This document shows, piece by piece, positions 2,605-34,274 of a stretch of 36,477 bases of DNA; position 1 is the first letter of the stretch, and each line of letters starts with the position of its first letter. Source of the DNA: a virus. The stretch spans positions 1-36,477 of IMG/VR virus record IMGVR_UViG_3300025483_000036; one strand, written 5' to 3'. A program made the position numbers and the translations under genes. The notes under the pieces are model-generated. The model made no database searches and was not told where the DNA came from. It saw only the letters and a program-made list of their open reading frames with translations.

Positions 2605-3012
2605 TTAGTTAGGATTTACAAATGAACCTGGATCAACAGTAGCATGATCGCCGTCTGCATACTCTGCTCCGATAGTTACGCCGTCTGGTTTTTTATCACT
2701 GTATGCTAATACGTTTTCGGGGTCTACTCGACGTAGCGTTTTTTCGTTGCCGTCTTCATTAAACAATATACCACGTGTCCAACGTCCATGTTCAATAAGA
2801 ATCCAATCTCCTACATCATACTCGTCTTTATTTTCAGGACCTTTGGCATATACTTTACCCCAGCGTGGGTAAATGCCTCTTGTTTCTCCGTCATCACTTC
2901 GTATAATTAATCCACTTTTAGTTTTTTGCTCACCAAAATGCATTTCTTCTACAAGTATATGATCTCTAATAGGCGTCAATGAGCCTTCTATTGCAGTTAA
3001 GTTAATTGCCAT
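2605..3012 (-). CDS. GroES-like co-chaperonin
   Basis: A 135-aa protein with the GroES beta-barrel signature: LTPIRDHILVEE near residue 12, KTKSGLIIRSDD with an intervening mobile-loop region, GKVYAKGPEN, then DVGDWILIEHGRWT matching the 'vGD.Vl...y.G' strand. T4-like phages encode gp31-type co-chaperonins that replace GroES to let GroEL fold the major capsid protein. This protein is longer than bacterial GroES (about 97 aa), with an extra C-terminal tail of about 35 residues (NVLAYSDKKPDGVTIG onward). Start ATG at 3012 lies 3 nt after the stop of the preceding gene, with AAAGGC as ribosome site. The fold assignment is fairly secure; the gp31-equivalent role is inferred from context. Confidence 0.78.
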   Translation of the reverse strand: MAINLTAIEGSLTPIRDHILVEEMHFGEQKTKSGLIIRSDDGETRGIYPRWGKVYAKGPENKDEYDVGDWILIEHGRWTRGILFNEDGNEKTLRRVDPENVLAYSDKKPDGVTIGAEYADGDHATVDPGSFVNPN

Positions 3013-3429: not shown

Positions 3430-3960
3430 TTATCTTAAGAACTCTCGCCAATCCAGGCCAAACTGGATTGAATTAATTTTGTGTACACCTATCAAGTATA
3501 ACACATATGATGCTACAGAGCTACCTCTACCTACGCCCCATACAATGTCGTGCTCACGCATGTAGTCTACAAGATAGATCATATAACGTAGTAAGTCTTT
3601 CATGCCACGTTCTCTAAAAGCATCTAATTCTTGCCATATACGATCTTGTACATGCTGTGGACAGGGTGTTTCTGCTTTGCCTAATACGTATTCATATACG
3701 TTAATGTCTTTGTATTCGTCAGGCATAAACCATTCACTTTGACATACACCGTCAAATGTCTTTTGATCTACATCTAATGGGATATACTTCTGTAGCTTGT
3801 CAAATCCTTGTTCTTCCATAGCGGCGTTGAACTTGTCTACATCATCGTTTGCATCACATAGTACCACATGAACTTTATCCGCATGACCTGAATAGATCAT
3901 ATCGACTAAGTCTTTATTTGTAAATCGCGGAATACCGAGAGAGTCTGTTTTCATAAGCAT
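3430..3960 (-). CDS. Truncated DnaE-like (DNA polymerase III alpha) protein
   Basis: A 176-aa protein whose C-terminal half matches the start of the C-family polymerase palm: ELDAFRERGMKDLLRYMIYLV-type helix (111-131), then WGVGRGSSVASYVLYLIGV (141-159) and the 'FGLDWREFLR' end. In bacterial DnaE the equivalent GPGRGSAAGS motif is followed by ERFLNPER and the catalytic PDIDIDF aspartates. Here translation stops exactly before that segment, and no PHP domain precedes it. So this cannot be an active polymerase by itself. It might bind template or primer, or interfere with or recruit host replication proteins. Start ATG at 3960; a second ATG at 3954 is possible, and no clear ribosome site is seen. 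No downstream frame continues the polymerase, so a simple frameshift is unlikely. Confidence 0.75.
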   Translation of the reverse strand: MLMKTDSLGIPRFTNKDLVDMIYSGHADKVHVVLCDANDDVDKFNAAMEEQGFDKLQKYIPLDVDQKTFDGVCQSEWFMPDEYKDINVYEYVLGKAETPCPQHVQDRIWQELDAFRERGMKDLLRYMIYLVDYMREHDIVWGVGRGSSVASYVLYLIGVHKINSIQFGLDWREFLR

Positions 3961-7741: not shown

Positions 7742-8479
7742 TTATACTGATACCAGTTCGCCTAAGTCTAAATCTATTGCTGAAGGTGAAGTAACACTAC
7801 CAAATTCAACATTAGATGTTGAAATTATTAAATCAAATACATTGTTGACTTGTATAGTGCTAAAGGATCCAAAATCGTATTCGGTAAGGTATGGAGTAAA
7901 GTCAGTTCCGCCTAATGTTCCGTCCACGTTGCCATAAAAGGTTTGTGTTTGGCTATCAATAATTAACGAACTATCGTCACTTGCATATATGTCACCTTGC
8001 ATATCTGCAACAACTCTATAGTCGTTACCTTGTAAATTGCCTCCTAAGGACGGAGACAAATCATTAACTAATGCTGTAGCTATTTTTAATTTATTATCTT
8101 CAATTGTAACCGTATCAACTGTGCCTACAGATTCGACTTTAAGTAGATTATTATATGTACTAATATCAGTTTGAGTTACGCCATCGCCTTGTACTGTAAA
8201 TGCAGGCTGTGTATTAGCAATAGTTATTGTTGTACTATCAAATGTTATGCCAACATTAGTTCCTGCAACAAGTGTTTTAAAACTTAAATTATTAGATGTT
8301 TCGCCAGCAAATATTTCAACTCCGCTACCTGCATTACTTGCAGTAGTTTGGTCAAGTGTTGCAACTTCGTTATTAATTAAATTTAAATTGCTATTTACTT
8401 TTACAAAAGCCTCTCGCAGATCATCACCTGTTCCGTCATTTGCTGAATTACCAATATTAATTAAACTTAAATCTGCCAT
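7742..8479 (-). CDS. Virion structural protein with NDGTGD N-terminal module, 245 aa
   Basis: Begins MADLSLINIGNSANDGTGDD and continues LREAFVKVNSNLNLIN, a phage attachment-like module (N-D-G-T-G-D, then a helix with 'AF.KVN.N') that also starts the 2763-aa giant. Residues 45-200 are beta-rich with GVEIFAGETSNNLSFKTL and 'LSPSLGGNLQGNDYRV', a 'P.LGGNLD' segment repeated in the 1159-aa fibre. ATG at 8479 has a GAGGAA ribosome site. Upstream, only a poorer CTAAATA late-like box (8498-8504) is seen. The size suggests a short fibre or connector carrying the common N-terminal docking module. No catalytic motif. Confidence 0.75.
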   Translation of the reverse strand: MADLSLINIGNSANDGTGDDLREAFVKVNSNLNLINNEVATLDQTTASNAGSGVEIFAGETSNNLSFKTLVAGTNVGITFDSTTITIANTQPAFTVQGDGVTQTDISTYNNLLKVESVGTVDTVTIEDNKLKIATALVNDLSPSLGGNLQGNDYRVVADMQGDIYASDDSSLIIDSQTQTFYGNVDGTLGGTDFTPYLTEYDFGSFSTIQVNNVFDLIISTSNVEFGSVTSPSAIDLDLGELVSV

Positions 8480-8500: not shown

Positions 8501-10102
8501 TTAGCTCTTCTTAAAAGTTACGTTGGTCATTACAATTGGTTTTGAACGTTGAAATGGCATATACGCAATTCTATTATTTCCGCCTTGAATACTATCTTGG
8601 TCGTCAAAATCGTCTGTAGCACCTTCGTATAATAACCCCGGTGTACTTTTGTCAATCATCCACTGCTTTAATTCAGCAGGAGTCATCCATGGATACAATT
8701 CAAGTACACATGCTAACATACCGCACACACTTGGCGATGCCATTGATGTTCCACTAATCTTCATTAAATAACTACTTGTGTCTAAAGCATTTTGAACTCT
8801 TGAAGGGCCACTGGCTTGTATATCATTTGTGTTTGCTGCATTATCTGTACTACTAACACTAAAAATATTTGTTCCAGGTGCGTATATATCAACACCAGGA
8901 CCACATTCGCTTGACTCTGCTTTGTGTTCTAATCCGCCTTGATATGTAATATCCATATTACCTACTAATATAGCATCTGGTCCTGCTGGAGAACTTCCAC
9001 GATGATAATACTCTGACCCAGTATTTGTGACTACTAAGTTATTCCAGTCTGTGCCACCTGATCGATCTACTTTATGATATTTGTTTCCTGCTGCAACACA
9101 AACATGAACACCTTCGTCTATAAGTTCTTGTAAATCTACATCTACAGAACTAACTCTGTTGTTCATTTTATAATTTTGACCAGCTGCTGCGCCACTTAGT
9201 GGAACAAGACCATAATTTTGATATCTATAATTGGCGTTTGGTTCTTGTGTAGTATTTGTATCAGTATGCGTTACACCTCTAAATGTTAAAGAAGTAACTG
9301 TGTTATAGTATAGTAAATATCCCCAACTCATGTTAACAATAGTAGGACGTTTATAACCTGTTGCAGGGTCAACTGGCTTTGCACGATGCCAAAGTTTAAT
9401 TTGATCAAACGCAACACTTGGAGATATTCCGCCACCTTCGGAGCCTGTAAGTCCAGCAATTTTTTGACTATAAATTGCTGAGCCTCTTGCCCATCCTACT
9501 GTACGTCCACATGCTGTTCCTGCAACGTGCGATCCGTGTCCGTCATAGTCAAGATAATGATTAGCCGGCATAGTTCCTGCTGTTCCGCTGGCAGTATACC
9601 AATCAAGTTCTACACACCTCGATACTCCATTTTCATCTGTAAATTCAACATCGTCAAAATCTACTCCGCCGTCTTGTATAACAACATCGACACCTTTGCC
9701 GGTTAAAGTATAGTTATATGTACCGTTGTAATTAGTTACACCACTACCCCATGGATCAGCATTGTTTATACTTCTACCTATAGTCCAAGGTAGTTCACTG
9801 GCTGTTATAGAACTTGTTTTTCTAAAATTGCCTGTTTGTGTTGCTTTATGTTCAATAACTAAGTCTGGATTATCTTCTGGTGGAATATGTATATCATATA
9901 CTCTGTCATCATCTTTAAGAGCAGTTGCTTCATCGTCTGTTAAGTTATAGTGTGTCATTCTATAACTACCTGGGCGAGCATTTGCAACACCTACTGTACG
10001 TCCGGGTATTGCACCTTCGCCAGTCGAAGCAATCATTTCTGTGTTAAATTGGTCGTAATCTACATCTTTGTTTAATATTACGATATATTCTTTTTCTGAC
10101 AT
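8501..10102 (-). CDS. Subtilisin-like serine protease (peptidase S8)
   Basis: A 533-aa protein with a complete catalytic triad: Asp144 in VVIQDGGVDF, His189 in DYDGHGSHVAGTA, Ser453 in SGTSMASPSV, and the oxyanion Asn340 in CVAAGN. Residues 1-75 (EYIVILNKDVDYDQF onward) look like an I9-type propeptide or inhibitor domain, followed by a linker. There is no signal peptide, so it acts in the infected cell or in the virion, not through the Sec pathway. It sits between structural genes in a late-type operon, with AAGGA before the ATG at 10102. Possible roles are processing of the neighbouring fibre proteins, or digestion of host surface proteins by virions. Family assignment is strong; role is inference. 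Confidence 0.92.
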   Translation of the reverse strand: MSEKEYIVILNKDVDYDQFNTEMIASTGEGAIPGRTVGVANARPGSYRMTHYNLTDDEATALKDDDRVYDIHIPPEDNPDLVIEHKATQTGNFRKTSSITASELPWTIGRSINNADPWGSGVTNYNGTYNYTLTGKGVDVVIQDGGVDFDDVEFTDENGVSRCVELDWYTASGTAGTMPANHYLDYDGHGSHVAGTACGRTVGWARGSAIYSQKIAGLTGSEGGGISPSVAFDQIKLWHRAKPVDPATGYKRPTIVNMSWGYLLYYNTVTSLTFRGVTHTDTNTTQEPNANYRYQNYGLVPLSGAAAGQNYKMNNRVSSVDVDLQELIDEGVHVCVAAGNKYHKVDRSGGTDWNNLVVTNTGSEYYHRGSSPAGPDAILVGNMDITYQGGLEHKAESSECGPGVDIYAPGTNIFSVSSTDNAANTNDIQASGPSRVQNALDTSSYLMKISGTSMASPSVCGMLACVLELYPWMTPAELKQWMIDKSTPGLLYEGATDDFDDQDSIQGGNNRIAYMPFQRSKPIVMTNVTFKKS

Positions 10103-10110
10103 ATTAATCC

Positions 10111-10380
10111 TTAAACAATATTAATTGTGTTACCCATACTTGCATGTACCGTACATTGATAGTACAGTGTTGCTGGTGCGCTCATTGGAACTACAATTGT
10201 AACCTGGCCAGTTTCGTTGCTTGATACTGTAGATACTCCGGTCGTATATGCTGCACCACCATTAGACACTCTAATTTCAAATGGGTGTCCCGCAGCATTC
10301 ATATCAAATGTGTACGCTTCTCCTCTACGCAAATACAATACAGGATTATCTTCTGCTGTAGGGAACCAATAATTGTTCTC
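10111..10380 (-). other. Cupredoxin-like domain at the fibre C terminus
   Basis: Residues about 1071-1159 of the fibre show 'LYLRRGEAYTFDMN', AGHPFEI and YYQCTVHASMGN. His1102, Cys1146, His1149 and Met1152 give the H...C-x2-H-x2-M arrangement of type I copper sites, with the same loop spacing as amicyanin. Copper binding is predicted, not shown; the beta-sandwich could also be used only structurally. Confidence 0.72.
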
Positions 10381-13300
10381 GTCTGTAAAGGTATATGCAC
10401 TTGCACCATTATTAGTTACATCAAAATAATGTGATGCTGTTGAGAAATAAGTTAGATAATTGCTTCCGTCATTCATTAACGGTCTAAGTCTTCCGTCTGT
10501 GTGTGAAGTCTGCGGTAAATATAAATCATATGCATCACCTAATGGTGCTGCTTTTAATGTAGTTGAATTACCGACGGATGGCTTTAATTCTATACCAGTC
10601 ACATTATTTAACGTATACGTTGCAACATCTAAGTTTGCACTCAACGTTGGAGATGTATCATCGGATACATTTGATATTAATCCTCCCCAACCTGAATTGT
10701 AAACAGTTAAACGGCTATCAGTTGTATTAAATGCAAGATCACCGTCTTGCGCTGTAAGAGCACCTAACTGTGTTGTTGTGTATTGTTTTAATCTTAGAAC
10801 ACTATTTGAAATTACAACAGCATCACCTGCATCTAAGTTTAAGTTAGTTGCTGCTTCAAGTGTTGCTGCACCTGTGCTTGTAGTTTCAAATGTGTCAGCT
10901 GTAACAGTTCCACTAAATGTACCTGCACCTGTTATGTTAACATCGCCAGTACCAGTAATATTATTTGAGTTTAAATCTAAGTTGCCGCCAAGCTGTGGTG
11001 TTGTATCGTCAACAACATCGCCTCCACCGCCGGACTGTGCTACCCAGTTGTAATCTGTGCCAGTCCAACTTAAGACTTCGCCGGCTGTTGCACCTGGGAG
11101 ATTCAAATGATTATCTACACCTGAAGTAGTTAAGTATCCTTGAGTAGTTACATATGATTGTGTTGCATAAGTTGATAATGCACCCGAAGTTACAAATCCT
11201 TGACCATTTACATAACTTTGTGTTGCATATCCACTTACAACACCGTCTGCATATGATTCTGTTGCAAATCCTTGAGAAGTTACATATGATTGTGTTGCAT
11301 AACCTGATAAATCTGATGATACAAGAAATCCACTATTGTTTGAAAGCTCATTAGTAGTTGTTGGAATATCAGCTACAAGTGCAACTTGACCAGTTGCGTT
11401 AGGAAGCGTAATAGTTCTATCAGCCCCAACATCTTCTGCTACAAGAAAAGTTTCAAAGTCATCAGGAGTTGCGCCTTCAAATCTAATCCCTGTTGTTGCG
11501 ATTTGTGCAGCCGCATCATCACCATTAGCAACTACTGTAGCCAAAGTAATAGATGCAATTAAATTGTTGACTGCTGCTGCTGTTAAAATTTCAGTATCAT
11601 CATAATTAGCTTCGTCGCTTGATCCAATTAATGTACCTGTTTCAAAGTCTGCTGTTGTAATTTCTTGTATATATGTGCTTAGGTCTGGTGGAGTATAAGT
11701 AAACACACCAGTTGCACTTGCATATGTAAGAGCCGCAGTACCAGCCGCTGCGGTGCTAACACTAATGTCTGTTAGTGCAATACCACTTGGTGATGATATC
11801 CAAGCATAGTCTGTGCCAGACCAACTTAATATTTCATTGCTGCCTGCACCACTTACGTTAAGATGTGTGTTTACATCACTATCTGTATATGCTGCTGGTA
11901 TATCAGATGTAAGAGCCAATGTGCCTGTGCTACCTGGAATGGTATGAGTATTCAATGTTCCTGCGGTAATATTACCTGTAACACCTAAAGCATTTGTATC
12001 AGGATCAAAGGTTACTCCTGCATCTGTGTAAATTGTTTCTGCGGCTGCTGTGATATTATCATCTGGAACAAATGTTAAGAAGTGATTACCTGTTCTTCCG
12101 CTCTGCTGTATTGTTTTAACTGTGTCAGCTTCGGTAGCATTTGCAACAGTTGAAATACTTGCACTAATTGTAATTTTACCTTCAGCGTCACTTGATGTTG
12201 TTACGTTTGTGCCGCCTGCTATTTGTAATACTTCTCCAGTGCCTATAATTTGTTCTGTACTATCGTCCGCAGCAACTACCAATTCTCCACCAAGTGATGT
12301 TGGTTTGTTTGCTAAGTTGTTATAGTTAAGAAAGTATGCACTATCAAAGCCATCTAATGTGTCTGCATCTGTGCCTGCACCGCCTGTTGTTGCATCAGCA
12401 CCTGGTGCCCAGTTTGAACCGTTCCATTTTAACACTTGTCCTGGTGTAGGAGGTGTTGTTACAGTATCTACATCACTTAGTGCATTAACACTTAGGCTTC
12501 CTATGCCTGAAATATATCCTGCATTATTTGTTAGTGAAGTTATGTTATCACTTGGTTGTACAGCAGAGTCTGCTAATGCACCCTGTGTAGATGTTGCAGC
12601 GTTTGTAATACCGTATCCTGCTATTGTTGTTGGCTTGTTTGTTAACGTACCAAATTCTCCGTTAAACGCATCTGTAATTCCGTATCCTGATATTGTAGTT
12701 GGCTTACTTGTTAGATCTGCAAAAGCAACAGTTGTTAAAAATCCACTGTCGTTTGTAAGATTGCTTGTAGCTGTAGGTACATCTGATGAATTAGCAAGCT
12801 CTACCCAATTGCCGCTATGGGCAAAGTAACCTTTACCGGTAGCATGAACATGTGCAAACATACCATGATATGTACTTGCAGTCGGCAAGTCTACTAAGTC
12901 AGCATACACATTTGAATATAAAATCTTATACGAACCAAAATCAATATCTGCGCCTGTTGTTATGTATCCTGCATCATTTGCAAGACCCGATACATTGTCG
13001 CCTGGCTGCACAGCAGATGTTGCAGATACACCTTGTGCAGATGTTGCAGCGTCCGTAATACCATAACCGACTAATGTAGTTGGAGCGTTATTAACCCTTG
13101 CCCATTCTAAAGATGAAGTTTGATCTAAATAATTTGCATCGTTAACAAACGCACTTACACCTGAAGGTTTAGTATATGATATAGTTATATTACCCTCAGC
13201 ATCGCTTGATGTTGAAATATCGCCGCCACCCGCAAATTTTATACTTTCGCCGCTTGTAACTTGACGTATAGTTGAATCGTCTGCTGCTACTCCAAAATCA

Positions 13301-13590
13301 AAATTAGCAAAGCCGTCGACACCGCCACCGCTTGCTGGTTTGTCAACGAATGTAAAGTTTCCGTTGCCATCTGTCTGTAGTATTTGGCCGTTGCTGCCGT
13401 CTGTTATACCTAAGTCTGACAATGTAGACGGTATTGTTGGTGTGCCTGTTAGACTTGCATATGATCCATCAAAGTCGCCTATTACTTCTATTGTTGTAAA
13501 ATTATTATTTACAGTAGTAAATGCTTCTCTAATATCATCCTCAAATGTTAAACTTCCTTTTGCAAACTTGTTGACATTTATATTTGCCAT
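10111..13590 (-). CDS. Tail-fibre-like protein with YGITDA and ATQSYV repeats and C-terminal cupredoxin domain, 1159 aa
   Basis: N terminus (VNKFAKGSLTFEDDIREAFT, then VNNNFTTIE) is the same type of docking module as in neighbouring fibres. Residues about 50-400 contain repeated 'PTT..GYGITDA' and 'AVQP.DN(I/V)..L.N.AGYI' units typical of phage tail fibres. Around 750-830 there are four ATQSYV/ATESYA stalk-like repeats, followed by 'TPQLGGNLDLNSNNITG'. The last about 90 residues form a cupredoxin-like domain (separate entry). ATG at 13590 shares one base with the stop of the 3366-aa gene (TAATG) and has AGGAG upstream. Likely a trimeric fibre expressed by read-through from the giant gene. The adhesin role is inferred from family. 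Confidence 0.83.
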   Translation of the reverse strand: MANINVNKFAKGSLTFEDDIREAFTTVNNNFTTIEVIGDFDGSYASLTGTPTIPSTLSDLGITDGSNGQILQTDGNGNFTFVDKPASGGGVDGFANFDFGVAADDSTIRQVTSGESIKFAGGGDISTSSDAEGNITISYTKPSGVSAFVNDANYLDQTSSLEWARVNNAPTTLVGYGITDAATSAQGVSATSAVQPGDNVSGLANDAGYITTGADIDFGSYKILYSNVYADLVDLPTASTYHGMFAHVHATGKGYFAHSGNWVELANSSDVPTATSNLTNDSGFLTTVAFADLTSKPTTISGYGITDAFNGEFGTLTNKPTTIAGYGITNAATSTQGALADSAVQPSDNITSLTNNAGYISGIGSLSVNALSDVDTVTTPPTPGQVLKWNGSNWAPGADATTGGAGTDADTLDGFDSAYFLNYNNLANKPTSLGGELVVAADDSTEQIIGTGEVLQIAGGTNVTTSSDAEGKITISASISTVANATEADTVKTIQQSGRTGNHFLTFVPDDNITAAAETIYTDAGVTFDPDTNALGVTGNITAGTLNTHTIPGSTGTLALTSDIPAAYTDSDVNTHLNVSGAGSNEILSWSGTDYAWISSPSGIALTDISVSTAAAGTAALTYASATGVFTYTPPDLSTYIQEITTADFETGTLIGSSDEANYDDTEILTAAAVNNLIASITLATVVANGDDAAAQIATTGIRFEGATPDDFETFLVAEDVGADRTITLPNATGQVALVADIPTTTNELSNNSGFLVSSDLSGYATQSYVTSQGFATESYADGVVSGYATQSYVNGQGFVTSGALSTYATQSYVTTQGYLTTSGVDNHLNLPGATAGEVLSWTGTDYNWVAQSGGGGDVVDDTTPQLGGNLDLNSNNITGTGDVNITGAGTFSGTVTADTFETTSTGAATLEAATNLNLDAGDAVVISNSVLRLKQYTTTQLGALTAQDGDLAFNTTDSRLTVYNSGWGGLISNVSDDTSPTLSANLDVATYTLNNVTGIELKPSVGNSTTLKAAPLGDAYDLYLPQTSHTDGRLRPLMNDGSNYLTYFSTASHYFDVTNNGASAYTFTDENNYWFPTAEDNPVLYLRRGEAYTFDMNAAGHPFEIRVSNGGAAYTTGVSTVSSNETGQVTIVVPMSAPATLYYQCTVHASMGNTINIV
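11103..11331 (-). repeat. ATQSYV stalk repeats inside the fibre gene
   Basis: Four near-copies of a 15-20 residue unit (YATQSYVTSQGF, ATESYADG, YATQSYVNGQGF, YATQSYVTTQGY) are encoded by near-identical DNA, with the plus-strand word gattgtgttgcat recurring. The pattern suggests a trimeric stalk and gives a substrate for slippage or recombination. Confidence 0.7.
12500..13110 (-). repeat. YGITDA-type tail-fibre repeats
   Basis: Three 'PTT(I/L).GYGIT(D/N)A' units and two 'SAVQP.DN' plus 'NAGYI' units occur within the 1159-aa fibre. The 'KPTT..GYGITDA' repeat is a widespread phage tail-fibre element. Confidence 0.75.
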
Positions 13591-16500
13591 TATAGAACTC
13601 CTACTGCTATTTCAATAATTTTTATTCCCGGATCGTTACTGGCTTCAATTGCTTTACCAATAACAGCACCGCCGATATATTCTTCACTTACCATTGCTAC
13701 GCCTGCTGTGTTACTTGCAATTAATAAGTCACCTTTTTCAACAGCTCCGATTACGTAGCACGGAACACGACCTTTTAATGCAATCGGTTGTCCTTCTGCT
13801 GCGCTGTTCATTAAGTATGCAGGGTCTGTTGATATAACTCCTGCTACTTTTCTTGTTGCCTGCGGATATGCTGCTGTAACTTCTTGGTCACCGCCAAACA
13901 TTACAACAGTACCTGGCTTGTATGTTTGATCAGTTGCATAAATTTCTGCCAAGTCAGCGTATTGTGCCGATGTTGCAGTACCGTAAACTGTACCCCATGG
14001 ACGACTTGACGAACCTAAGCTATATGCGCCGGATGTAGAATTAGGTATAATATCACTGTTTATTCTACCTGTTAATGTAGTTGTGTCAGTTGCTGCATCT
14101 CCTAATGTAGTAGTACCTTGCGTTAAGAAATTAGGAGCAGTAATAACAACGTTACTACCTTCGATACGCATTTTTTCACCGGTGTCAGTGGTGCCGTTTC
14201 GCAGAGTTCTAAATGAAATCTTACCAGCAGCAGTTGCACTGTTAACCACATCTGAAATAAACTCAATCTCAGCATACGGTCTCTCAGACTGAACGCTTGT
14301 TCTACCTTCAGCTAATATATTAAGTATTACATCGCCATTTGCCGGTGTAGTGCTGGATAACCTGGAACGAATCAAGCCGCCAGTGCTGCCCGAAGTATTA
14401 TTATACATATTGAGCGTTGTTGTGCCTGACCTGGACAATGTTAAGTTGCCAAACGTAGGAGTGTCAGCTGTGCCAAGTCCTTCTGCACTACCACTTGTAG
14501 TAATGACTCCTGTTGCACTTATTGATGTTGCTGTATCTAATGCACTTTGTGTAGTTGTAGATGCTGTACCTCCAGCTACTGCCATTGTGCCGCTGTTATT
14601 TGGAATATTAATTGTTCTATCAGCAGTTGGATTAACTACTGTTAATGTTGTTTCGTTTGCATCTGCTGATGATCCTTCAAATACAATTGATGTATCAATT
14701 GCAAGTGAACTAAATGCGCCGGTGCCGCCGCCTGTAATATCTGATAGCAATGCAACAGTACCACTTGCATTAGGTAGTGAAATTGATCTATCAGCTGTTG
14801 GTTCACCACCATCAAGTGTAGTTTCAAACGTATTATCAGTTGTACCTTCAAATCGAATATCTACTCCTGCTCCAAGATATACTTCACCTCTTGGAACTTG
14901 TATACCGTTGCCTACAACAAGACTGTTTGAAAAACTATTAGCTGAATATGTTGTAAATTGGAAACTACTATCTCTGGTAGTATTAGTAATGTCATCTGAC
15001 TCTACTTTAATACTTGCCCAAGTCTGTTCAACGTTACCACTGTCCTTGCCAAAGAATTCGATATCTGCCAAGTCGTCATTATCAGCTTCACCGGTAGTAG
15101 TTTTACCAATTCTAACTGTCGGTCCCTGCGCATCAGCATTTGAGTTTGTTAATGTAAGAACTGGTGCTGATGATGTTGCACTACTTAATATTAATCCACC
15201 AAACGTTGGCGTATCTGTTGTAGCAAGTCCTTCTGCACTACCACTAATTTGACCCGATGCACTAATTGCTAAATCAAGTCCGCTTTGTGTTGAACTTGTA
15301 CCAGCACTTACAGCAAACGTTCCGCTTGCGTCTGGAATATTAATTATTCTATCAGCAGTTGGGTTTACTACATCAAAACGTGTTTCAAACGTATTAGCAG
15401 TTGCACCTTCAAAACGTAGCGGAGTTGCACCAGCTAATGTTCCGTTAATAGTAACTGTGTCACTTGTTGCATTGCCAAGTGTTGTATTGCCTTGTACATT
15501 TAATGCACCTGTTAGAGTTAATCCAACAAACTGTGGACTATCTGTTGTAGCAAGCCCTTCAGCACTACCTGTTAAGTTTCCAGCTGCACTAATTGCTAAA
15601 TCAAGTCCACTTTGTGTTGTGCTTGTACCAGCACTTACAACTACTGTACCGTCTGCATCTGGAATGTTAATTGCTCTGTCTGCTGTTGGGTCAACTACAG
15701 TAATTCTTGTTTCAAAACTATTGTCAGTATCGCCTTCAAATGTAATTGCGTTTGTGCCATCTGTTAGCACAAGGCTTTCAAAAGTTGGTGTATCAGCAGT
15801 GCCAAGTCCTTCTGCACTACCACTAATTGCACCAGCTGCGCTTACACTTATATCTAATGCACTTTGTGTAGTTGTACTTGAACCTGCAACAGCAAACGTT
15901 CCGCCTGCATTTGGAATGTTAATTGATCTATCAGCAGTTGGTTCTGTTATTGTAATTGAAGTTTCAAATCCATTTGCAGTTGGACCTTCAAAACGTAATG
16001 GTGTTCCGCCTTGGATTGTACCAGTAAGTGTGATTAGATCTGCTGCTGCGTCACCAAGTGTTACATTGCCATTTAATGTTGTAGTACCTGATACTGTTAA
16101 GTTGTCATCAACTGTAACTGTACCGCCTGCACTGTCAATTGTTAAGTTGCCCGTGCTTGTGTCAATTTCATTATCGCCAGTTTGTCCAATTTTAACATTA
16201 CCAAACTTACCGCCTGTAAATGTACCTTCACCAAATACTACGTTACCTGCTGTACCACTAAACACTTCGCTTGTGTTAGTTGCATCTGGAATAAATGTAA
16301 ACACACTTCCACTATCGTCGTATCCAAAGAAACCTTTCTTGGCTGCTGTTCCATTGTGCCAGCGATATTCAATACCACGGTCTTTGTTGTCGTCACTTGC
16401 AGGAGCAGTATCACCACCTAATGTAAAGATTGGATCATCAACAGTTACAGTTGTACTATTAACAGTTGTTGTACTTCCGTCTACTTGTAGATCACCTTTG

Positions 16501-19500
16501 ATAGTTACTTTAGGTGAACCAGTAGTTGTAGTAAATACCATTAGCTCAACTGGTGTACCAGCATCGTCTTTTATTGTTAATGCGTCTGCTTGGTTAGTTG
16601 GAACAATAATTTGGTTAGTACCGTTTGTACCTTCAAAGTTTAAATTTCTGTTTAGGTAAATGTCTCTTGCTTGGTTAGTTGTATCACCAATATCATTGTT
16701 AGTATCAGTAAATAGTATGCTTGATGTAACCTTACCAGTTAGTGTTATCGTATCACTATTAGCATTACCAAGTGTTGTATTTCCGTTTACAGAGAAATTG
16801 TCATTAACTACAACAAGATTTGTAGCAGCGTCTAATTTTAAATCACCAGTTGTTGTGTCAATAGTATTATCATCAGTAACACCTACTCTAATATTACCTA
16901 AAATTATGTCATTACCCCATTCAGGTATTCCTGTACTACCAACTCTAAGTATATCTCCGTTAGTGCCAATAGCTAATTTAGATAATGTATCTGTGTTTGC
17001 TGCGCCAACTACTGCTCCAGCATATATTATATCACCTTTATTATATGATGTTATATATGTGCCACCTTTGTTAAGAGGTACTGCTGAAGTTAAGTTAATT
17101 GGATTTTGATAGAACGATCCTTGTCTTCCGTCAAGTGTATCAGAATCAATTGCGCCACCATCAGCTGCATCCTTTGTAGTAACTTTACCAGTTGAATCTA
17201 CATTAAAGTAATCAAAATCAAAACGTGCAAGTCCTAATAGTTCTTGTGGCGTTCCGCCTGGAGAACTTGTGCTTGCTACTTCGATTGATATTTCTGGCTT
17301 GTTGTAGAAACTAAATGTTCCCGGAGTAGCTGGTTCTTCGTAATTACTACCTTGCAGTGTAATTGGGTTTGTTTGTCCTGCAATTAATGCTGGAGTTTGT
17401 ATACCTTGAACAGCCTCAACAAACTGACTGTCGCCTCTTAAGAATGTTAAATTGTTTGCACTTCCGGTACCCAATCTCGAAGTTTCAATAACCCCACTAA
17501 TAATATTACCAGCGTCAATAGTTGCTGTACTTAAACTACTCCAATTTATATTATCTCGTCCACTGGTGTTTACAACATCCTTAACAACAACATTTTGAAT
17601 TTCAAGAGCTAATGATCCAGAACCAGTGTCTGCTAACTCTGTTGGTGCAACTTGCAATCCATTTAAACTTGATAATGCAGAGCCTCTACTTGTATGTACT
17701 TGGAAACTGTTTGTTGTAACTCCGCCAACAAATACTCTTTGTTCGTCAAATAATCCACTTGGTACATCTGTTCCGTCTAATCTTACAGCTTGCCCTGTAG
17801 TAATTCCGTGTGCTGCTTTATAAAATCTGTTTGATTCGGTATTTACTGTTTGTCTTTTTAAGAAGTGTGTACCAGTACTTGTACTTGAAATTGTAAGTTT
17901 TTGTGTAGTAACGCCATAGTCAGTGTATAGATCAAAATTGTTTACATCAATTACTTTTACAAAGTATGTGTTGCCGTTTGCAAGACCACCTAATGAAATA
18001 TTACTATTTGTATCGTATAGTACAGGATCTCCATCTGATAGACCATGTGATGATATGTTAAATCTACTATTAGCAGCATCAATGTTTCCGCCACTACCTG
18101 TATCACGAGCGTCAACATTAGTTGTTTGTTCAACAGTTAAATCTGCGATAGTAATAGTAGTAGGACTATCGTCAACTAAGAAGTCTGGGTTAGAGTCGCT
18201 CGGTGCAAACACAAGTCCAACTGCTTGATTTAACGTAGTAAATAATCTGTTCTGTACATCTGTAACAATAAACACTGCATCAGCGCCGGTACCGCCTTGG
18301 CCACCTAAACTTGAATCTGCAACACTAAGTTGATCACCAACAGCATAACCAGTACCACCTGTAATAATATCAACTGTATCAATAGTTCCTGCTACAACAT
18401 TCATATCTGCTGTTGCGCCACTACCACTACCTGTTATATTTGTAAAAGGAACGTTAGTTACGTTACCAGATGCTATATATTCAGTACCGCCATTAAATCC
18501 TACAAAGTTAATAGTAATCAATACACCAACATCATGCGATGTTACTTCACTAATTACTGCGCCGCTTACACTACCAACTAATGCAGTATCGTTTGCAATA
18601 ATATTTGTAAAATCATATGTAAGACTTTCGTCTAAGATCAACATTTGACTTGACTTGTTATTAGCAAGGAAGTAGTTGTCTGTTTCTGTAGTTTCAGAAC
18701 TTACAACAGTTGGGTACGGAGTACCTGTGATTGCTGCAATTGTGTCACTTGAACTATTACTAAATGTTCCAGCAACATTAACAACAATTAAGTTTGTTGC
18801 ATTTGTTAAGTCTTGTTTTACTTCACCTGTTGCTCCAGTATTTAACTGAGTAATAATAGTTCCTTTAGCAACAGTTGATGCTACACTTAAAGTAAGTGTA
18901 ACTTGACTATATCTCTCAACAGCAATATCACCTGCATTAAGTTTGTTTGGTGGAATTTGTAAGTGTAATTCAAGTCTACCTTCAAATTCGTCATCTTCAT
19001 AACTTGTAAATAATCCTGTTGGAGGAATAACATCTGGACTTAGTTTACCACTACTGTCTAACTGTGTAACAGCATTTGGCACACTGTTTGTACTGACGTT
19101 TTGATCAATAAATGCACCAAGTCTATTATCTAAGAATTTTCTTGCAGCTCGTTGTGTAACAAGTCTTGAATCTGATGCACCACCAACTTCGTTATCGCCT
19201 AATTCAATATCAGTACTAATTTCGTTAACTTCAACTCCTGATGACAAACTCAGCGCAAGTGAGTCAAGCAATCCAACTGTAACTTTGTTTTTAAATTCAA
19301 TGTTACCTGTTCTGTTAAATGCAACAACAAATTTACCAACTTTAAAGTCACCAAGTTCGTTTGTACCTGATGTATACACACGCCCTGGGAGTGTATCAAC
19401 TTGTTCATAGAATGAAATAGTTTGGCCGCCATTTTGTGGAAGTGCGTTATAGTCAATACCCGAACCTGCATATTCCCATGTGTGTGAAGATGAGTTAGTA

Positions 19501-22500
19501 ATACTTGGTCTGTGCAAGTTGAGCTTCTTACCAGGAGTACCAACTCCCGGAGCCATATTAGAAATATTTGATACTGCATTAGATCTTGAAGTTGCAACCT
19601 TAAATGTTGAAGTATAAAGATTATTAATAGCATTTACTGTTTGTACACTAACAGCACCGGCATTACCTATTTCTGCTGTAAGTATTTGATCACCTGGAGA
19701 AAACTTTCTTCTAACTTGTGTGACGCCTTCTTGTACAAGTTCGTTACTAACAATTAATGTAGGTCCACCTGCGCCTGCTGCATCATACGAAAGTATCGAT
19801 GCAACAATATTATCGCCGCCTACTGACGTTCCACTAATAGAGTCACCAATTACTGGCGTAAATGTTCCTGCTGGTAATACAACTTCTTGATAGTCATTGT
19901 GTGTTGAAACAACTTCTTGAATAATAATATGTTCGTATCCCTTACGGAATTCGTGTGTTCCCGAAGTGTTAGCAAAAGATAATCTTGTTACTGGGTTAGT
20001 ATAGTCTTCGTCATGATACAATCCAATTCTATTAGAAGTAACATCACTTACATAATATGTAAGTTCGTTATATATGCCGTCTGCTTCTGGATTTCCCTTT
20101 GCAAGATATGTAATTACATCACCATCAACAAACGGTTGGTTTGCTGGTGTTATGAAATCAGGCGCTGTATAAAACGACATAGTGTTTCCACTTATCAATA
20201 CGTTAGCTGGAGTAATTTGGAATGTAATGCCGTCTTGGCTATCAAGCGTAAAGCTATCAGTAATTCTAAGAGCATTGCCTTCTAAGTTAAATGATGTTGC
20301 ACTTGCATCAAAGACTTCTGCAACATAATGTTCTAATGCAGGCTCACCTAAACCAATAACAGTTAATGTTTGATTTGCGTCAATTGTACCTGTACCACTT
20401 ACTACACCTCTGTTAAAATCAAAACTACTTTGTGAATAACCAGAACTACGTAGAGCAAATAAACCAAAGTTTGATGCTGAGTTTGTAATTGATAGATAGC
20501 CGCCATTTTGTGTTAAACACCCTTGCTGTGTAAAGATAACAAAGCAACTAACAATCTGTGCATATGCATCGTTAACAACACGCCATGCTACACCGTCAAA
20601 TGACAGAATAGTAAATGCGTTACTAACCATTGACTTACCTTGCTCAGGTACATCGCCTATAGCTGGGAATTCAGCTTCTTCTGGGTTTGATGGAACATTA
20701 GGAGTATCAACTAATGTACCGTCTATTTCAACGCCGCCTGCACCAATAAACGAAATAACAGAACAGTTTTGTACATATGGTGATGTAAAGATAACTGCTT
20801 TTTCAACTGTTAAGTTTGTATATCCTGCTCTTGATACTGATGTATCAAAAGGACTGTCAAAACTTATACAGAATCTATGTGTAAAGTCTGGAATACCTGT
20901 ACCGTCTAAGTGGTCTCTAAATACTACTCCAGTTATATATGAACTGTTGCGTACTCTTACACCATCTTGCTGTGCGACTGCTGGACGAATAATAACTCTA
21001 CGCAAGTTATCACCTATAAGTGATACATTGTCTGCAAGTATAAATGTTTCTTCAGTATAGTCGCCGCTTGCAACTTGAATAGTAATTTGATTTTTAGTAA
21101 CATTTGTTGGATACACTTCAGTCGGTGCTGCACCTAAACTTGTAATTATATTAGACACAATATCAAAACTTGCACCTATTGCTGTTGCTCTTGATCCTGT
21201 CAAATATGTAACAGCAAGTGATTTAGCATATCCTACTGCTGCTGCTGTTTCTGTCTCTTGCCCACTAATATAAGTGTTTCCGTTTGCATCATAATAAAAT
21301 TTACCTGCTGTAACACTTCTACTATTTCCGCCAAAGCGCAAATCATAAATTGCACTGTCGATAATTTCTTTTACATCTCTATTACATTTTGCTTGATTGT
21401 ATGTTAAGGATGGGTATGTAGTGTTGATCCAAACTATTGTAGCATCTGCGATAGTTTGTGCTGCTGCTCTTAGTGCTGCTGTTTCTGTTTCAGTTGTAGG
21501 ATCAGTTGTTGTTGGAGTATAAACCAAACTTGTTGCAATCTGTGCTGCACGTTTGATTGTTAATGTTGGTGCTGTAATGCCGTCATTGTCGTCACTACCA
21601 AGTGCTTTACTTACATAAACACGGTTGCCACCAAACGCATCTGGATTAACAAATGTAACAGCTCCTGCACCATCAGTTTTCATCATTTGATTTACTGTAC
21701 CGTCTGCTGTTGGCATAGTGTAATCATTAATTGTAACATCGTCTGTAACTTGTATACTATCAATATATGCTGTTGCCCATCTTTCTGAGTCAGTACCTAA
21801 ATCGCCTGCTGCATCAGTTTGTGGTTTTACATTACCAGTAATTTCTAAGTTAGAACCATCGTATGTTAAATTTGCATTATCAGTAAGTGATCCGTTTGTG
21901 CCACTAAATGTTATTCTTGTGTCTGTTAAGTCACTAACAGTTAAACTTGGAGTAACTACTTCTCCTGTTCCATTTGGAGTAATATTGATGTCGTCGTTGT
22001 TTTCAAATGTACTAATAGTGTTTCCACTTAATTGTATTTGATTAATTTGAGTATCAACATCAACATCAAAAAGTGTATCACTTAGTGTTGCTTTTAAATT
22101 ATCTTGTGTATAAAATCTAAGTTCGTCATTGTCAGCACCTGGTGAAGTTTCTGCACTGATATATGTATCTTGGTCAACATCTTTGACGCCACCTAATGAT
22201 CCCCAAGCAATGCCATCGTACCCTTCAAAGATTGTATCTTCTGAGTTAAAGCGAACCATACCTATTGTGCCTGCAGGTCTTGATGCGTTATTACCTAATG
22301 GTAATATCAATCCTTGATCGCTATCTATTTCTACATTGCCAGTTCCGGCTGGTCTTAGGATAAGACTTGCATTAGTGTTAGTTACGCTAATAGTATCGTC
22401 GTCAATTCTAATTGAATCTAAGTCTAATCTACTTGCATTTACTTGACGCCATTTAAGTAAATTATTACCTAAATCATATGTGTCATTTAATCCTGGTATA

Positions 22501-23690
22501 ATATCAGAAGCAATAGTAGCATTAAATTCTGCACTTGGTTCTGCAGCCTGTCCTAAAACAAATGCTCCTTCAACTGATATTAATCCTGTTACATTAACAT
22601 TGCCTTGTATTGTTTGATTGCCGCTAACTACACTGTTACCACCTACATAAAGATTTTTTCCAATACCTGCTCCGCCTACTGTAGTTAGTGCTCCTGTTAC
22701 TGTAGAATTACTTTGAGTTGTATTTGTTTGGTTAACAGTACCGTCTACTACTATGCCGCCTGCAATGCCTACGCCACCAGCAACAGTCAACGCACCTGTT
22801 GTTGAAGTAGTTGTTGCTGTTGTTGCTTGAAGTATTGTATCAACATTTGAATCTAACGCAAACTGTGTTGACGATAGTGTTGCACTTCCTTGTCCGCCAG
22901 TAAAAAATTGTATTGTGTCTTCATCAGACCCTGACGAAACTTCTGCTCTAATAAATGTATCTTGGTCAACATCAACTACGCCGCCTAAGCCTCTCCAATT
23001 AGTGCCATCGTACCCTTCAAATACGCCACCTTCTGTATTAAATCTAATTCCGCCTTGTATGTCTACTCCACGTGCCAATGTATCACCAACTGGTAAAATT
23101 AAACTGGTAGCACTATTAATTTTTAAATTTTGTCCAGAGCCTGGAATAAGAACCATGTCAGCTGCAATAGTTGCCATTTGATTAGCACTGTAAGTATACG
23201 ATTGAATTGCACTTAGTGTATCAAATTCAAATGTTCCATTACCGTTAGACTTTAAGTATTGATTTGCGCCGCCGTCTTGTATACCTAAGTCAATAAGTGT
23301 TGCAGGTATTACTGGTTTATTTACTAAGTCGTTATAGTTACTAACTGTGCTTTCGGCAAACGAAAAGTTACCATTACCATCAGTTGTTAATACTTGTCCG
23401 TCTAAGCCATCAAGAATATTTAAATCTGTTAATACTCCTGGTATAGTTGGCTTATTTGCTAATTCTGTATAATCGCCACTAAACAAAACTGGCTTGTTTG
23501 CAAGATCATTGTAATCGCCACTAAATGTATTGTATGCTTCACCGGTGTTTGTAAAAATTGTACCGGAAACATATATGTCATTAACTGCTGATATGTCACT
23601 CCCAGTTAAATTTAAATTGTCACCTGTTGGTAATTCTGAAATTTTGTTTTCGTTTGTAGTATCAATTACAAGTGGAAATCTATTTGCCAT
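13590..23690 (-). CDS. Giant virion structural protein (tail-fibre-like), 3366 aa
   Basis: A 10.1-kb uninterrupted gene. N terminus: MANRFPLVIDTTNENKISEL followed by two 'GDYN(D/E)LANKP' repeats and 'LTTDGNGNFSF'. Around 690-1150, 'VYVSKALGSDDNDGITAPT' and 'TIQVASGDYTEETFIL' resemble a right-handed beta-helix (pectin-lyase-like) region. Around 1460-1540 lies a segment shared with the 2763-aa giant (FKVGKF then AARKFLDNRLG). Residues about 2560-3085 hold five 'RFEG...N.FET...PTADR.INIP' repeats. The last about 130 residues are the C-terminal module shared with the other giant. ATG at 23690 has AGGA upstream and a GATAAATA late box about 26 nt upstream. Probably a fibre or whisker component. 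Its mass (over 340 kDa) is exceptional for a fibre. No enzyme motif that I can confirm. Confidence 0.85.
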   Translation of the reverse strand: MANRFPLVIDTTNENKISELPTGDNLNLTGSDISAVNDIYVSGTIFTNTGEAYNTFSGDYNDLANKPVLFSGDYTELANKPTIPGVLTDLNILDGLDGQVLTTDGNGNFSFAESTVSNYNDLVNKPVIPATLIDLGIQDGGANQYLKSNGNGTFEFDTLSAIQSYTYSANQMATIAADMVLIPGSGQNLKINSATSLILPVGDTLARGVDIQGGIRFNTEGGVFEGYDGTNWRGLGGVVDVDQDTFIRAEVSSGSDEDTIQFFTGGQGSATLSSTQFALDSNVDTILQATTATTTSTTGALTVAGGVGIAGGIVVDGTVNQTNTTQSNSTVTGALTTVGGAGIGKNLYVGGNSVVSGNQTIQGNVNVTGLISVEGAFVLGQAAEPSAEFNATIASDIIPGLNDTYDLGNNLLKWRQVNASRLDLDSIRIDDDTISVTNTNASLILRPAGTGNVEIDSDQGLILPLGNNASRPAGTIGMVRFNSEDTIFEGYDGIAWGSLGGVKDVDQDTYISAETSPGADNDELRFYTQDNLKATLSDTLFDVDVDTQINQIQLSGNTISTFENNDDINITPNGTGEVVTPSLTVSDLTDTRITFSGTNGSLTDNANLTYDGSNLEITGNVKPQTDAAGDLGTDSERWATAYIDSIQVTDDVTINDYTMPTADGTVNQMMKTDGAGAVTFVNPDAFGGNRVYVSKALGSDDNDGITAPTLTIKRAAQIATSLVYTPTTTDPTTETETAALRAAAQTIADATIVWINTTYPSLTYNQAKCNRDVKEIIDSAIYDLRFGGNSRSVTAGKFYYDANGNTYISGQETETAAAVGYAKSLAVTYLTGSRATAIGASFDIVSNIITSLGAAPTEVYPTNVTKNQITIQVASGDYTEETFILADNVSLIGDNLRRVIIRPAVAQQDGVRVRNSSYITGVVFRDHLDGTGIPDFTHRFCISFDSPFDTSVSRAGYTNLTVEKAVIFTSPYVQNCSVISFIGAGGVEIDGTLVDTPNVPSNPEEAEFPAIGDVPEQGKSMVSNAFTILSFDGVAWRVVNDAYAQIVSCFVIFTQQGCLTQNGGYLSITNSASNFGLFALRSSGYSQSSFDFNRGVVSGTGTIDANQTLTVIGLGEPALEHYVAEVFDASATSFNLEGNALRITDSFTLDSQDGITFQITPANVLISGNTMSFYTAPDFITPANQPFVDGDVITYLAKGNPEADGIYNELTYYVSDVTSNRIGLYHDEDYTNPVTRLSFANTSGTHEFRKGYEHIIIQEVVSTHNDYQEVVLPAGTFTPVIGDSISGTSVGGDNIVASILSYDAAGAGGPTLIVSNELVQEGVTQVRRKFSPGDQILTAEIGNAGAVSVQTVNAINNLYTSTFKVATSRSNAVSNISNMAPGVGTPGKKLNLHRPSITNSSSHTWEYAGSGIDYNALPQNGGQTISFYEQVDTLPGRVYTSGTNELGDFKVGKFVVAFNRTGNIEFKNKVTVGLLDSLALSLSSGVEVNEISTDIELGDNEVGGASDSRLVTQRAARKFLDNRLGAFIDQNVSTNSVPNAVTQLDSSGKLSPDVIPPTGLFTSYEDDEFEGRLELHLQIPPNKLNAGDIAVERYSQVTLTLSVASTVAKGTIITQLNTGATGEVKQDLTNATNLIVVNVAGTFSNSSSDTIAAITGTPYPTVVSSETTETDNYFLANNKSSQMLILDESLTYDFTNIIANDTALVGSVSGAVISEVTSHDVGVLITINFVGFNGGTEYIASGNVTNVPFTNITGSGSGATADMNVVAGTIDTVDIITGGTGYAVGDQLSVADSSLGGQGGTGADAVFIVTDVQNRLFTTLNQAVGLVFAPSDSNPDFLVDDSPTTITIADLTVEQTTNVDARDTGSGGNIDAANSRFNISSHGLSDGDPVLYDTNSNISLGGLANGNTYFVKVIDVNNFDLYTDYGVTTQKLTISSTSTGTHFLKRQTVNTESNRFYKAAHGITTGQAVRLDGTDVPSGLFDEQRVFVGGVTTNSFQVHTSRGSALSSLNGLQVAPTELADTGSGSLALEIQNVVVKDVVNTSGRDNINWSSLSTATIDAGNIISGVIETSRLGTGSANNLTFLRGDSQFVEAVQGIQTPALIAGQTNPITLQGSNYEEPATPGTFSFYNKPEISIEVASTSSPGGTPQELLGLARFDFDYFNVDSTGKVTTKDAADGGAIDSDTLDGRQGSFYQNPINLTSAVPLNKGGTYITSYNKGDIIYAGAVVGAANTDTLSKLAIGTNGDILRVGSTGIPEWGNDIILGNIRVGVTDDNTIDTTTGDLKLDAATNLVVVNDNFSVNGNTTLGNANSDTITLTGKVTSSILFTDTNNDIGDTTNQARDIYLNRNLNFEGTNGTNQIIVPTNQADALTIKDDAGTPVELMVFTTTTGSPKVTIKGDLQVDGSTTTVNSTTVTVDDPIFTLGGDTAPASDDNKDRGIEYRWHNGTAAKKGFFGYDDSGSVFTFIPDATNTSEVFSGTAGNVVFGEGTFTGGKFGNVKIGQTGDNEIDTSTGNLTIDSAGGTVTVDDNLTVSGTTTLNGNVTLGDAAADLITLTGTIQGGTPLRFEGPTANGFETSITITEPTADRSINIPNAGGTFAVAGSSTTTQSALDISVSAAGAISGSAEGLGTADTPTFESLVLTDGTNAITFEGDTDNSFETRITVVDPTADRAINIPDADGTVVVSAGTSTTQSGLDLAISAAGNLTGSAEGLATTDSPQFVGLTLTGALNVQGNTTLGNATSDTVTINGTLAGATPLRFEGATANTFETRFDVVNPTADRIINIPDASGTFAVSAGTSSTQSGLDLAISASGQISGSAEGLATTDTPTFGGLILSSATSSAPVLTLTNSNADAQGPTVRIGKTTTGEADNDDLADIEFFGKDSGNVEQTWASIKVESDDITNTTRDSSFQFTTYSANSFSNSLVVGNGIQVPRGEVYLGAGVDIRFEGTTDNTFETTLDGGEPTADRSISLPNASGTVALLSDITGGGTGAFSSLAIDTSIVFEGSSADANETTLTVVNPTADRTINIPNNSGTMAVAGGTASTTTQSALDTATSISATGVITTSGSAEGLGTADTPTFGNLTLSRSGTTTLNMYNNTSGSTGGLIRSRLSSTTPANGDVILNILAEGRTSVQSERPYAEIEFISDVVNSATAAGKISFRTLRNGTTDTGEKMRIEGSNVVITAPNFLTQGTTTLGDAATDTTTLTGRINSDIIPNSTSGAYSLGSSSRPWGTVYGTATSAQYADLAEIYATDQTYKPGTVVMFGGDQEVTAAYPQATRKVAGVISTDPAYLMNSAAEGQPIALKGRVPCYVIGAVEKGDLLIASNTAGVAMVSEEYIGGAVIGKAIEASNDPGIKIIEIAVGVL
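13593..13990 (-). other. C-terminal module shared by both giant proteins (copy 1)
   Basis: After 'LGSSSRPWGTVYG' come AQYADLAEIYATD, YKPGTVVMFGG, RKVAGVISTDPAYLMN, LKGRVPCYVIGAVEKGDLLI and a final IIEIAVGV strand. The same series ends the 2763-aa protein. Placement at the extreme C terminus after a variable shaft suggests a trimerisation, capping or self-cleaving chaperone domain; the peptidase G2-type fold is one candidate. This is inference. Confidence 0.7.
14430..16000 (-). repeat. Five-fold ~85-130 residue repeat inside the 3366-aa gene
   Basis: Units start 'RFEG.T.N.FET', pass through 'PTADR.INIP(D/N)A.GT', then 'TQS.LD.A(I/V)SA.G' and 'GSAEGL.T.DTPTF'. At DNA level the plus word ccttctgcactaccact recurs near 14485, 15225 and 15808, with a variant near 15553. 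High DNA identity between units suggests recent expansion or gene conversion. Confidence 0.8.
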
Positions 23691-32910: not shown

Positions 32911-33203
32911 GATCTACTCCTTACGAAAGTGTCTAAACTTTCTAACGTTTTTGTTTGTCTTGCTTGTTTACGTTCTAAAACTGTAATAGCTGCACGTTGT
33001 TTACGAATTTGCTCTTCTAAACTTTGTACATACCGCTGTGTAGGAATTTGGTTCTCAGCACCATCTTCACTAACCATAACAACATGGTCAGCGCCCTGCG
33101 CACGTAACCCACCTGCTACACGATTAGGATTCTTATCCGAAGCCGATGAACTCTGGGGTTGTTGTTTCTTGCGTCCGTACATGCTCTTTAAGTTGAAACT
33201 CAT
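32907..33203 (-). CDS. Conserved phage protein with C-terminal coiled coil (98 aa)
   Basis: Begins MSFNLKSMYGRKKQQPQSSS, then 'NPNRVAGGLRAQGADHVVMV', then a helical stretch from about 56 to 90 (YVQSLEEQIRKQRAAITVLE onward) with heptad-like spacing. I believe similar proteins occur in many marine T4-like phages, but no function is known. ATG at 33203 has an AAAGGA site and a perfect TATAAATA late box about 18 nt upstream, so it is late and possibly virion-associated. The longer frame to 33236 would pass through the promoter. It overlaps the uvsE 3' end by 71 nt in another frame, which is unusually long here. Confidence 0.78.
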   Translation of the reverse strand: MSFNLKSMYGRKKQQPQSSSASDKNPNRVAGGLRAQGADHVVMVSEDGAENQIPTQRYVQSLEEQIRKQRAAITVLERKQARQTKTLESLDTFVRSRS

Positions 33204-34236: not shown

Positions 34237-34274
34237 ATAGTCACCGCATGTTGTAAATTTTAAATCCATACTTT

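Follow-up and report, generated by a model that had tools for sequence, protein, structure and literature searches.

A cupredoxin-like module with a predicted type-1 copper ligand set at the C-terminus of marine phage tail proteins

The window analyzed here, a 36,477-nucleotide stretch of the IMG/VR virus record IMGVR_UViG_3300025483_000036, encodes a fibre-like tail protein of 1159 residues (10111–13590, minus strand; identified from the ORF and PHROG matches). Its last 107 residues (1053–1159; 10114–10434, minus strand) almost certainly fold as a cupredoxin, based on AF2, Foldseek, and profile matches. Because four ligand residues in this domain are kept or lost together across hundreds of marine phages, the sequences point to tail proteins of viruses as carriers of bound copper. 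The module very probably binds metal, and the reading we lean towards is that it holds one type-1-like copper through His1102, Cys1146, His1149, and Met1152 and serves as a generic, metal-locked contact module at the fibre end. A conserved cupredoxin module with type-1-like ligands on phage tail proteins is apparently undescribed: our search of the literature, which left aside subscription journals, preprints, and InterPro/Gene3D annotations, found no published account of one, and others may have seen the cupredoxin fold before.

Predicted fold and ligand positions

AF2 modelled the domain from an alignment of the window sequence and 21 phage relatives (A1) with a pLDDT of 95.3 and a pTM of 0.86. 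Foldseek matches of this model in the PDB were overwhelmingly cupredoxins (probability 1.0, best E 1.8e-4). In this structural comparison, of a kind that a preliminary description of the DNA had proposed, the top matches were three-domain Cu nitrite reductase (Cu-NIR), rusticyanin, plastocyanin, pseudoazurin, AcoP, and the CuA domains of cytochrome oxidase, with moderate TM-scores to solved cupredoxins (0.5–0.6). The Greek-key β-sandwich that defines the type 1 (blue) copper cupredoxin superfamily was recovered at that confidence (AF2 pLDDT 95, Foldseek probability 1.0). Pfam returned nothing significant for the C-terminal domain, and no part of the window matched PF00127 Copper-bind at its cut-off; among the phage relatives PF00127 matched one at E 0.0016. 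When distant relatives from phages, as low as 28% identity, were added to the profile (A2), it matched Cu-NIR (5e-6), rusticyanin (6e-4), and amicyanin and plastocyanin (~1e-3) in the PDB, and all of the matches listed were copper proteins. The NCBIfam amicyanin model (TIGR02657) matched five members (best E 6.6e-5). BFVD models of tail proteins from P-SSM5, P-SSM2, and S-SCSM1 have the same fold and bear no copper or cupredoxin name.

The predicted structure, Foldseek, conservation, and the A2 profile thus agree on the cupredoxin-like domain with a type I-like ligand set that had been proposed. The domain is C-terminal as described but begins about 15–18 residues earlier than the boundary of 10380 given before (10114 to ~10434). 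The amicyanin-type assignment held for the loop spacing, whereas sequence and fold place the domain among cupredoxins generally (rusticyanin, Cu-NIR, amicyanin). Ten phage copies in A2 also resembled PF25489, the plant At5g54830-like family (best E 2e-4). The protein after which that family is named has DOMON and cytochrome b561 parts, and the plant domain may itself be an undescribed cupredoxin.

The C-terminus of the window protein reads ...AGHPFEIRV...YYQCTVHASMGNTINIV, and the ORF translation confirmed all four proposed ligand positions exactly. His1102, predicted copper ligand 1 (10285–10287), lies in GHPFEI, aligned to GHSFDI of rusticyanin. Cys1146 (predicted ligand 2, 10153–10155, at the end of a model strand), His1149 (predicted ligand 3, 10144–10146), and Met1152 (predicted axial ligand, 10135–10137, replaced by Gln in relative L113), all on the minus strand like His1102, were assigned from the A2–rusticyanin alignment and conservation. 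In that alignment the four phage ligand residues fall on GHSFDI and YYVCQIPGHAATGM, which carry the rusticyanin copper ligands. In model numbering, His 50 sits just ahead of strand 52–55, Cys 94 is the end of strand 89–94, and the loop preceding the last strand contains His 97 and Met 100, all as in cupredoxins. Sequence spacing, model strands, and the rusticyanin alignment all gave the superfamily arrangement of a His before strand 4, a Cys ending strand 7, and a His plus axial Met or Gln in the next loop. Cys1146 is the sole Cys among the 1159 residues, so a disulphide or zinc-finger reading is ruled out. Across the six-frame ORFs of the window, 20,907 aa in total, C-x2-H-x2-M turned up a single time; the chance of finding it in this protein, given the protein's composition, is ~5e-5, which together with the ligand conservation and co-loss described below rules out a chance motif.

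The module shares with the cupredoxin domains of rusticyanin and Cu-NIR both its fold and the profile-aligned G-H-x-F-x-I His and C...H...M ligands. Unlike them, it is part of a virion protein, has an amicyanin-length C-x2-H-x2-M loop, and has no known electron-transfer partner. Amicyanin (TIGR02657) shares that ligand loop and a weak profile similarity, but it is a free-standing soluble protein, secreted and encoded beside a mau operon (methylamine dehydrogenase), with ligand 1 in PHN, whereas the phage domain is fused to a fibre among tail genes and has GHPF. A copper protein that cyanophages encode is plastocyanin, from the petE gene (PMC2984593), which is a soluble auxiliary metabolic gene in contrast to a domain of a structural protein. 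A horizontally acquired petE plastocyanin is ruled out, as the domain belongs to a tail protein and reached no plastocyanin Pfam cut-off.

Distribution and architecture among phages

The module was matched in 363 phage records (E below 1e-3), nearly all from Synechococcus or Prochlorococcus phages and mostly from marine T4-like cyanophages, under the labels hypothetical, gp9 baseplate wedge tail fiber connector, tail fiber, and minor tail protein. It has gone unlabelled so far because Pfam misses it and databases say 'hypothetical' or 'gp9'. Among 12 complete phages, it was present in syn9, P-SSM4, S-SM1, P-SSM2 (four places), P-HM2 (four), S-SSM7, and S-TIM5, with intact copies in the cultured cyanophages syn9, P-SSM4, S-SM1, and P-SSM2, S-PM2 had a fragment, and at E 0.01 it was absent from T4, P-SSP7, HTVC008M, and the freshwater S-CRM01. 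A scan of 84,980 prokaryote species with a pattern biased by containing the Cys and His gave only five loci, each from a metagenome-assembled genome or a bin.

In 171 of 278 matches no more than 12 residues separated the module from the end of its ORF; in the other 107 it was internal. Some relatives (e.g. L043) have T4_gp9_10_N at the N-terminus (E 3e-9) and the cupredoxin at the C-terminus, which puts the module opposite the end that presumably anchors in the baseplate. T4 gp9/gp10-type connectors correspond to PF07880 and PHROG 677 (baseplate wedge tail fiber protein connector). The window protein had no significant T4_gp9_10_N match; its best-matching stretch to PHROG 677 was residues 730–1159 (E 1.7e-34), a stretch that is partly the shared cupredoxin module. 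T4 lacks the cupredoxin, and cyanophage baseplate connectors gain a defined C-terminal module missing in T4. The predicted structure of a whole gp9-like relative reached a pLDDT of only 40, too low for use. The module had been placed at the very tip of the fibre; its C-terminal position is certain, but its distal position in the virion is one that we infer.

Within the window clade (A3), the module was more conserved than the preceding stalk of the same proteins in 151 of 153 pairs (65% vs 24% identity). These identities argue against a hypervariable receptor-binding tip and weigh against a host-specific receptor role; by sequence, the domain is a mobile unit whose stalks change, which sets it apart from receptor tips that evolve fast. 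This bears on a metal 'Trojan horse', in which the copper-loaded module would dock on a host outer-membrane protein for copper acquisition or handling and aid adsorption. By analogy such docking is conceivable, as the module is C-terminally exposed on appendage proteins with conserved ligands, the window fibre has a conserved His-rich HxH motif too, and iron offers a precedent: metal-bearing phage fibre tips bind iron at HxH sites, the basis of the Ferrojan Horse idea (PMC11705849). The T4 gp37 sites described there likewise place His-bound metal on phage appendages, but they hold iron along the trimer axis, whereas ours is a predicted mononuclear His-Cys-His-Met site in a cupredoxin. We consider this role unlikely, since the conservation exceeds that expected of a receptor-binding tip, the module occurs on many different appendage proteins and sometimes internally, and no receptor is known.

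Ligand conservation and the bound metal

To sample copies independently of the ligands, we used an HMM with the ligand columns masked and a DNA pattern for VPxxAPxxLYYQ with the ligands left out. All fetched copies fitting VPxxAPxxLYYQ were counted, and H-C-H-M was kept in 161 of 172 distinct copies, a percentage that leans upwards because some of them were first found by other scans, one of which had the Cys and His in its pattern. The 11 exceptions were RCYM (two), FATM (two), NSDL (two), YCQM, YATM, MNDA, MCHM, and ESTN; in one of them a single ligand is gone, in the other ten two or more. Apparent losses of the first His (SCHM, ACHM, LCHM) were rejected as register shifts with the His present (e.g. 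SHSIRF, THAIYF). Natural copies whose ligands were lost together include L030 and L031 (RCYM), L226 and L168 (NSDL), L159 (MNDA), and the second copy in L049 (NNNV).

Co-loss was strongest among the ligands themselves. Across 630 pairs of conserved columns, ranked descriptively by phi because related sequences are not independent, Cys and the second His (H2) ranked first (0.90), the first His (H1) and H2 second (0.79), H1 and Cys fourth (0.69), Cys and Met fifth (0.67), and H2 and Met eighth (0.60), so five of the six ligand pairs were in the top eight; H1 and Met ranked 30th. H1 and Cys reached fourth place despite lying 45 alignment columns apart. On a tree from which the ligand columns had been left out, and after correcting the register shifts by eye, the losses amounted to ~8 independent events. 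None of the nine copies without the ligand Cys has any Cys (9/9), and 170 of 171 HCHM copies contain just a single Cys, so a disulphide inside the domain is excluded. At the 28% identity reached in A2, the ligands are three of only five invariant positions. Frequent ligand loss in homologues would have spoken against the site; with 161/172 sets intact and the losses concerted, the evidence points the other way. The ligands are conserved or lost as a set, as in the superfamily, and from these sequences constraint is on the four ligands as a unit.

The same patterns bear on whether the domain is a metal-free relic, an Ig-like structural β-sandwich whose ligands persist by descent or packing. Phage fibres commonly use β-sandwich decorations, and ligand-less copies exist in which the domain is kept. 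Packing would not, however, predict that the strongest couplings include the joint loss of residues 45 positions apart, nor does it fit three ligands among five invariant positions at 28% identity, and we give this reading little credence.

Still less probable in our view is a redox-active site that would trigger infection by electron exchange with a partner on the host surface or in the periplasm, or by sensing redox state or light. The type-1 ligand set is intact with a short amicyanin-type loop, and the relatives come chiefly from phages that infect cyanobacteria, for which light-dependent adsorption has been reported. No partner is known, however, and psbA was not found in relatives of the window, namely on the 236–257 kb phage contigs that carry them. 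S-PM2, reportedly a phage named in the light-adsorption literature, had a single fragmentary match that ends in CATQ and lacks the second His, and this degenerate copy gives no support to light-dependent adsorption via a copper site.

Instead, a different metal (Zn, Cu(I) alone, or some other soft metal) could be held by the four residues with no role beyond stability, as C/H/H/M sets can bind various soft metals in vitro, but this is the least probable reading, since the fold and the alignment of the ligands to blue copper proteins favour copper, as does a Met-to-Gln variant. Axial Gln was found as HCHQ in L113 (residues 153–267 of its ORF) and as VCHQ in the partial L234; stellacyanin uses Gln as its axial ligand.

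The bound ion would accordingly be copper in the generic contact module that we favour, one per protomer. His1102, Cys1146, His1149, and Met1152 would hold one type-1-like ion, presumably taken up from the host cytosol, the lysate, or seawater. The metal would lock the C-terminal β-sandwich into a form that resists proteases and dissociation, and would shape a conserved contact surface, directed toward a neighbouring virion protein or a common feature of host surfaces. Most likely, then, the domain would act as a generic end module of the tail appendages of marine phages, and probably as neither an electron-transfer enzyme nor a variable specificity determinant. Copies without any ligands would have a structural role only; eight lineages or more kept the domain after losing the site, so the metal is not always essential. 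More tentative, and in our estimate rather doubtful, is the broader claim that marine phages, including most T4-like cyanophages, carry a widespread and functionally required type-1 copper module on tail or baseplate proteins, for instance for copper-dependent attachment or as a redox trigger of infection; in that case viruses would also hold a marine store of organically bound copper.

To our knowledge, the metals described on phage tails so far are for the most part the iron of HxH tips and structural ions. A real copper site would mean that abundant ocean phages build a metalloprotein module capable of redox chemistry into their virions. It also raises the question of how a virion assembled in the cytosol gets copper, since cytosolic copper in bacteria is very low and loading is not obvious.

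Neighbouring genes and the source phage

The fibre gene lies among tail genes. Two giant tail-fibre genes (13590–23690 and 23735–32026) are upstream, the 10-kb one having no near DNA match that we could find, and a weakly gp9/10-like protein (7742–8479) is encoded downstream. Residues 212–269 of the 1159-residue protein matched PHROG 9729 (tail fiber). Residues 242–258 (12817–12867, minus strand) form the His-rich motif HGMFAHVHATGKGYFAH, whose HxH was kept in 9/9 distinct copies found with a pattern that left both His open; ORFs with the conserved motif mostly also bear the cupredoxin, and the motif is a candidate second metal site of the iron type.

Directly downstream of the cupredoxin fibre, after an 8-bp gap, is a subtilase (S8, PF00082, E 2e-27; 8501–10102, minus strand) with the Asp-His-Ser residues present, consistent with an intact triad. 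The pair was found again in ~25 related loci, many of them close relatives. In P-SSM2 a subtilase gene adjoins the cupredoxin gene, and the PHROG 9158 profile has a subtilase at 4–551 and a cupredoxin at 578–695, apparently in one polypeptide. A virion protease linked to the cupredoxin fibre is possible from this gene order. The subtilase was rejected as an obligate partner: a same-strand subtilase occurred at only 40 of 254 cupredoxin loci, mainly in a close clade.

A UV-damage-endonuclease-like protein (33133–34269, minus strand) had its nearest matches in phage NCTB and in Dickeya/Erwinia phages (~254–267 kb). As relatives of the window fibre also sit on phage contigs of 236 and 257 kb, the window probably represents part of a large phage genome. 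A 176-residue protein (3430–3960, minus strand) matched only the start of a DNA polymerase III alpha NTPase domain and would be a short or split polymerase gene. A GroES-like (Cpn10)/head morphogenesis protein is encoded at 2605–3012 (minus strand).
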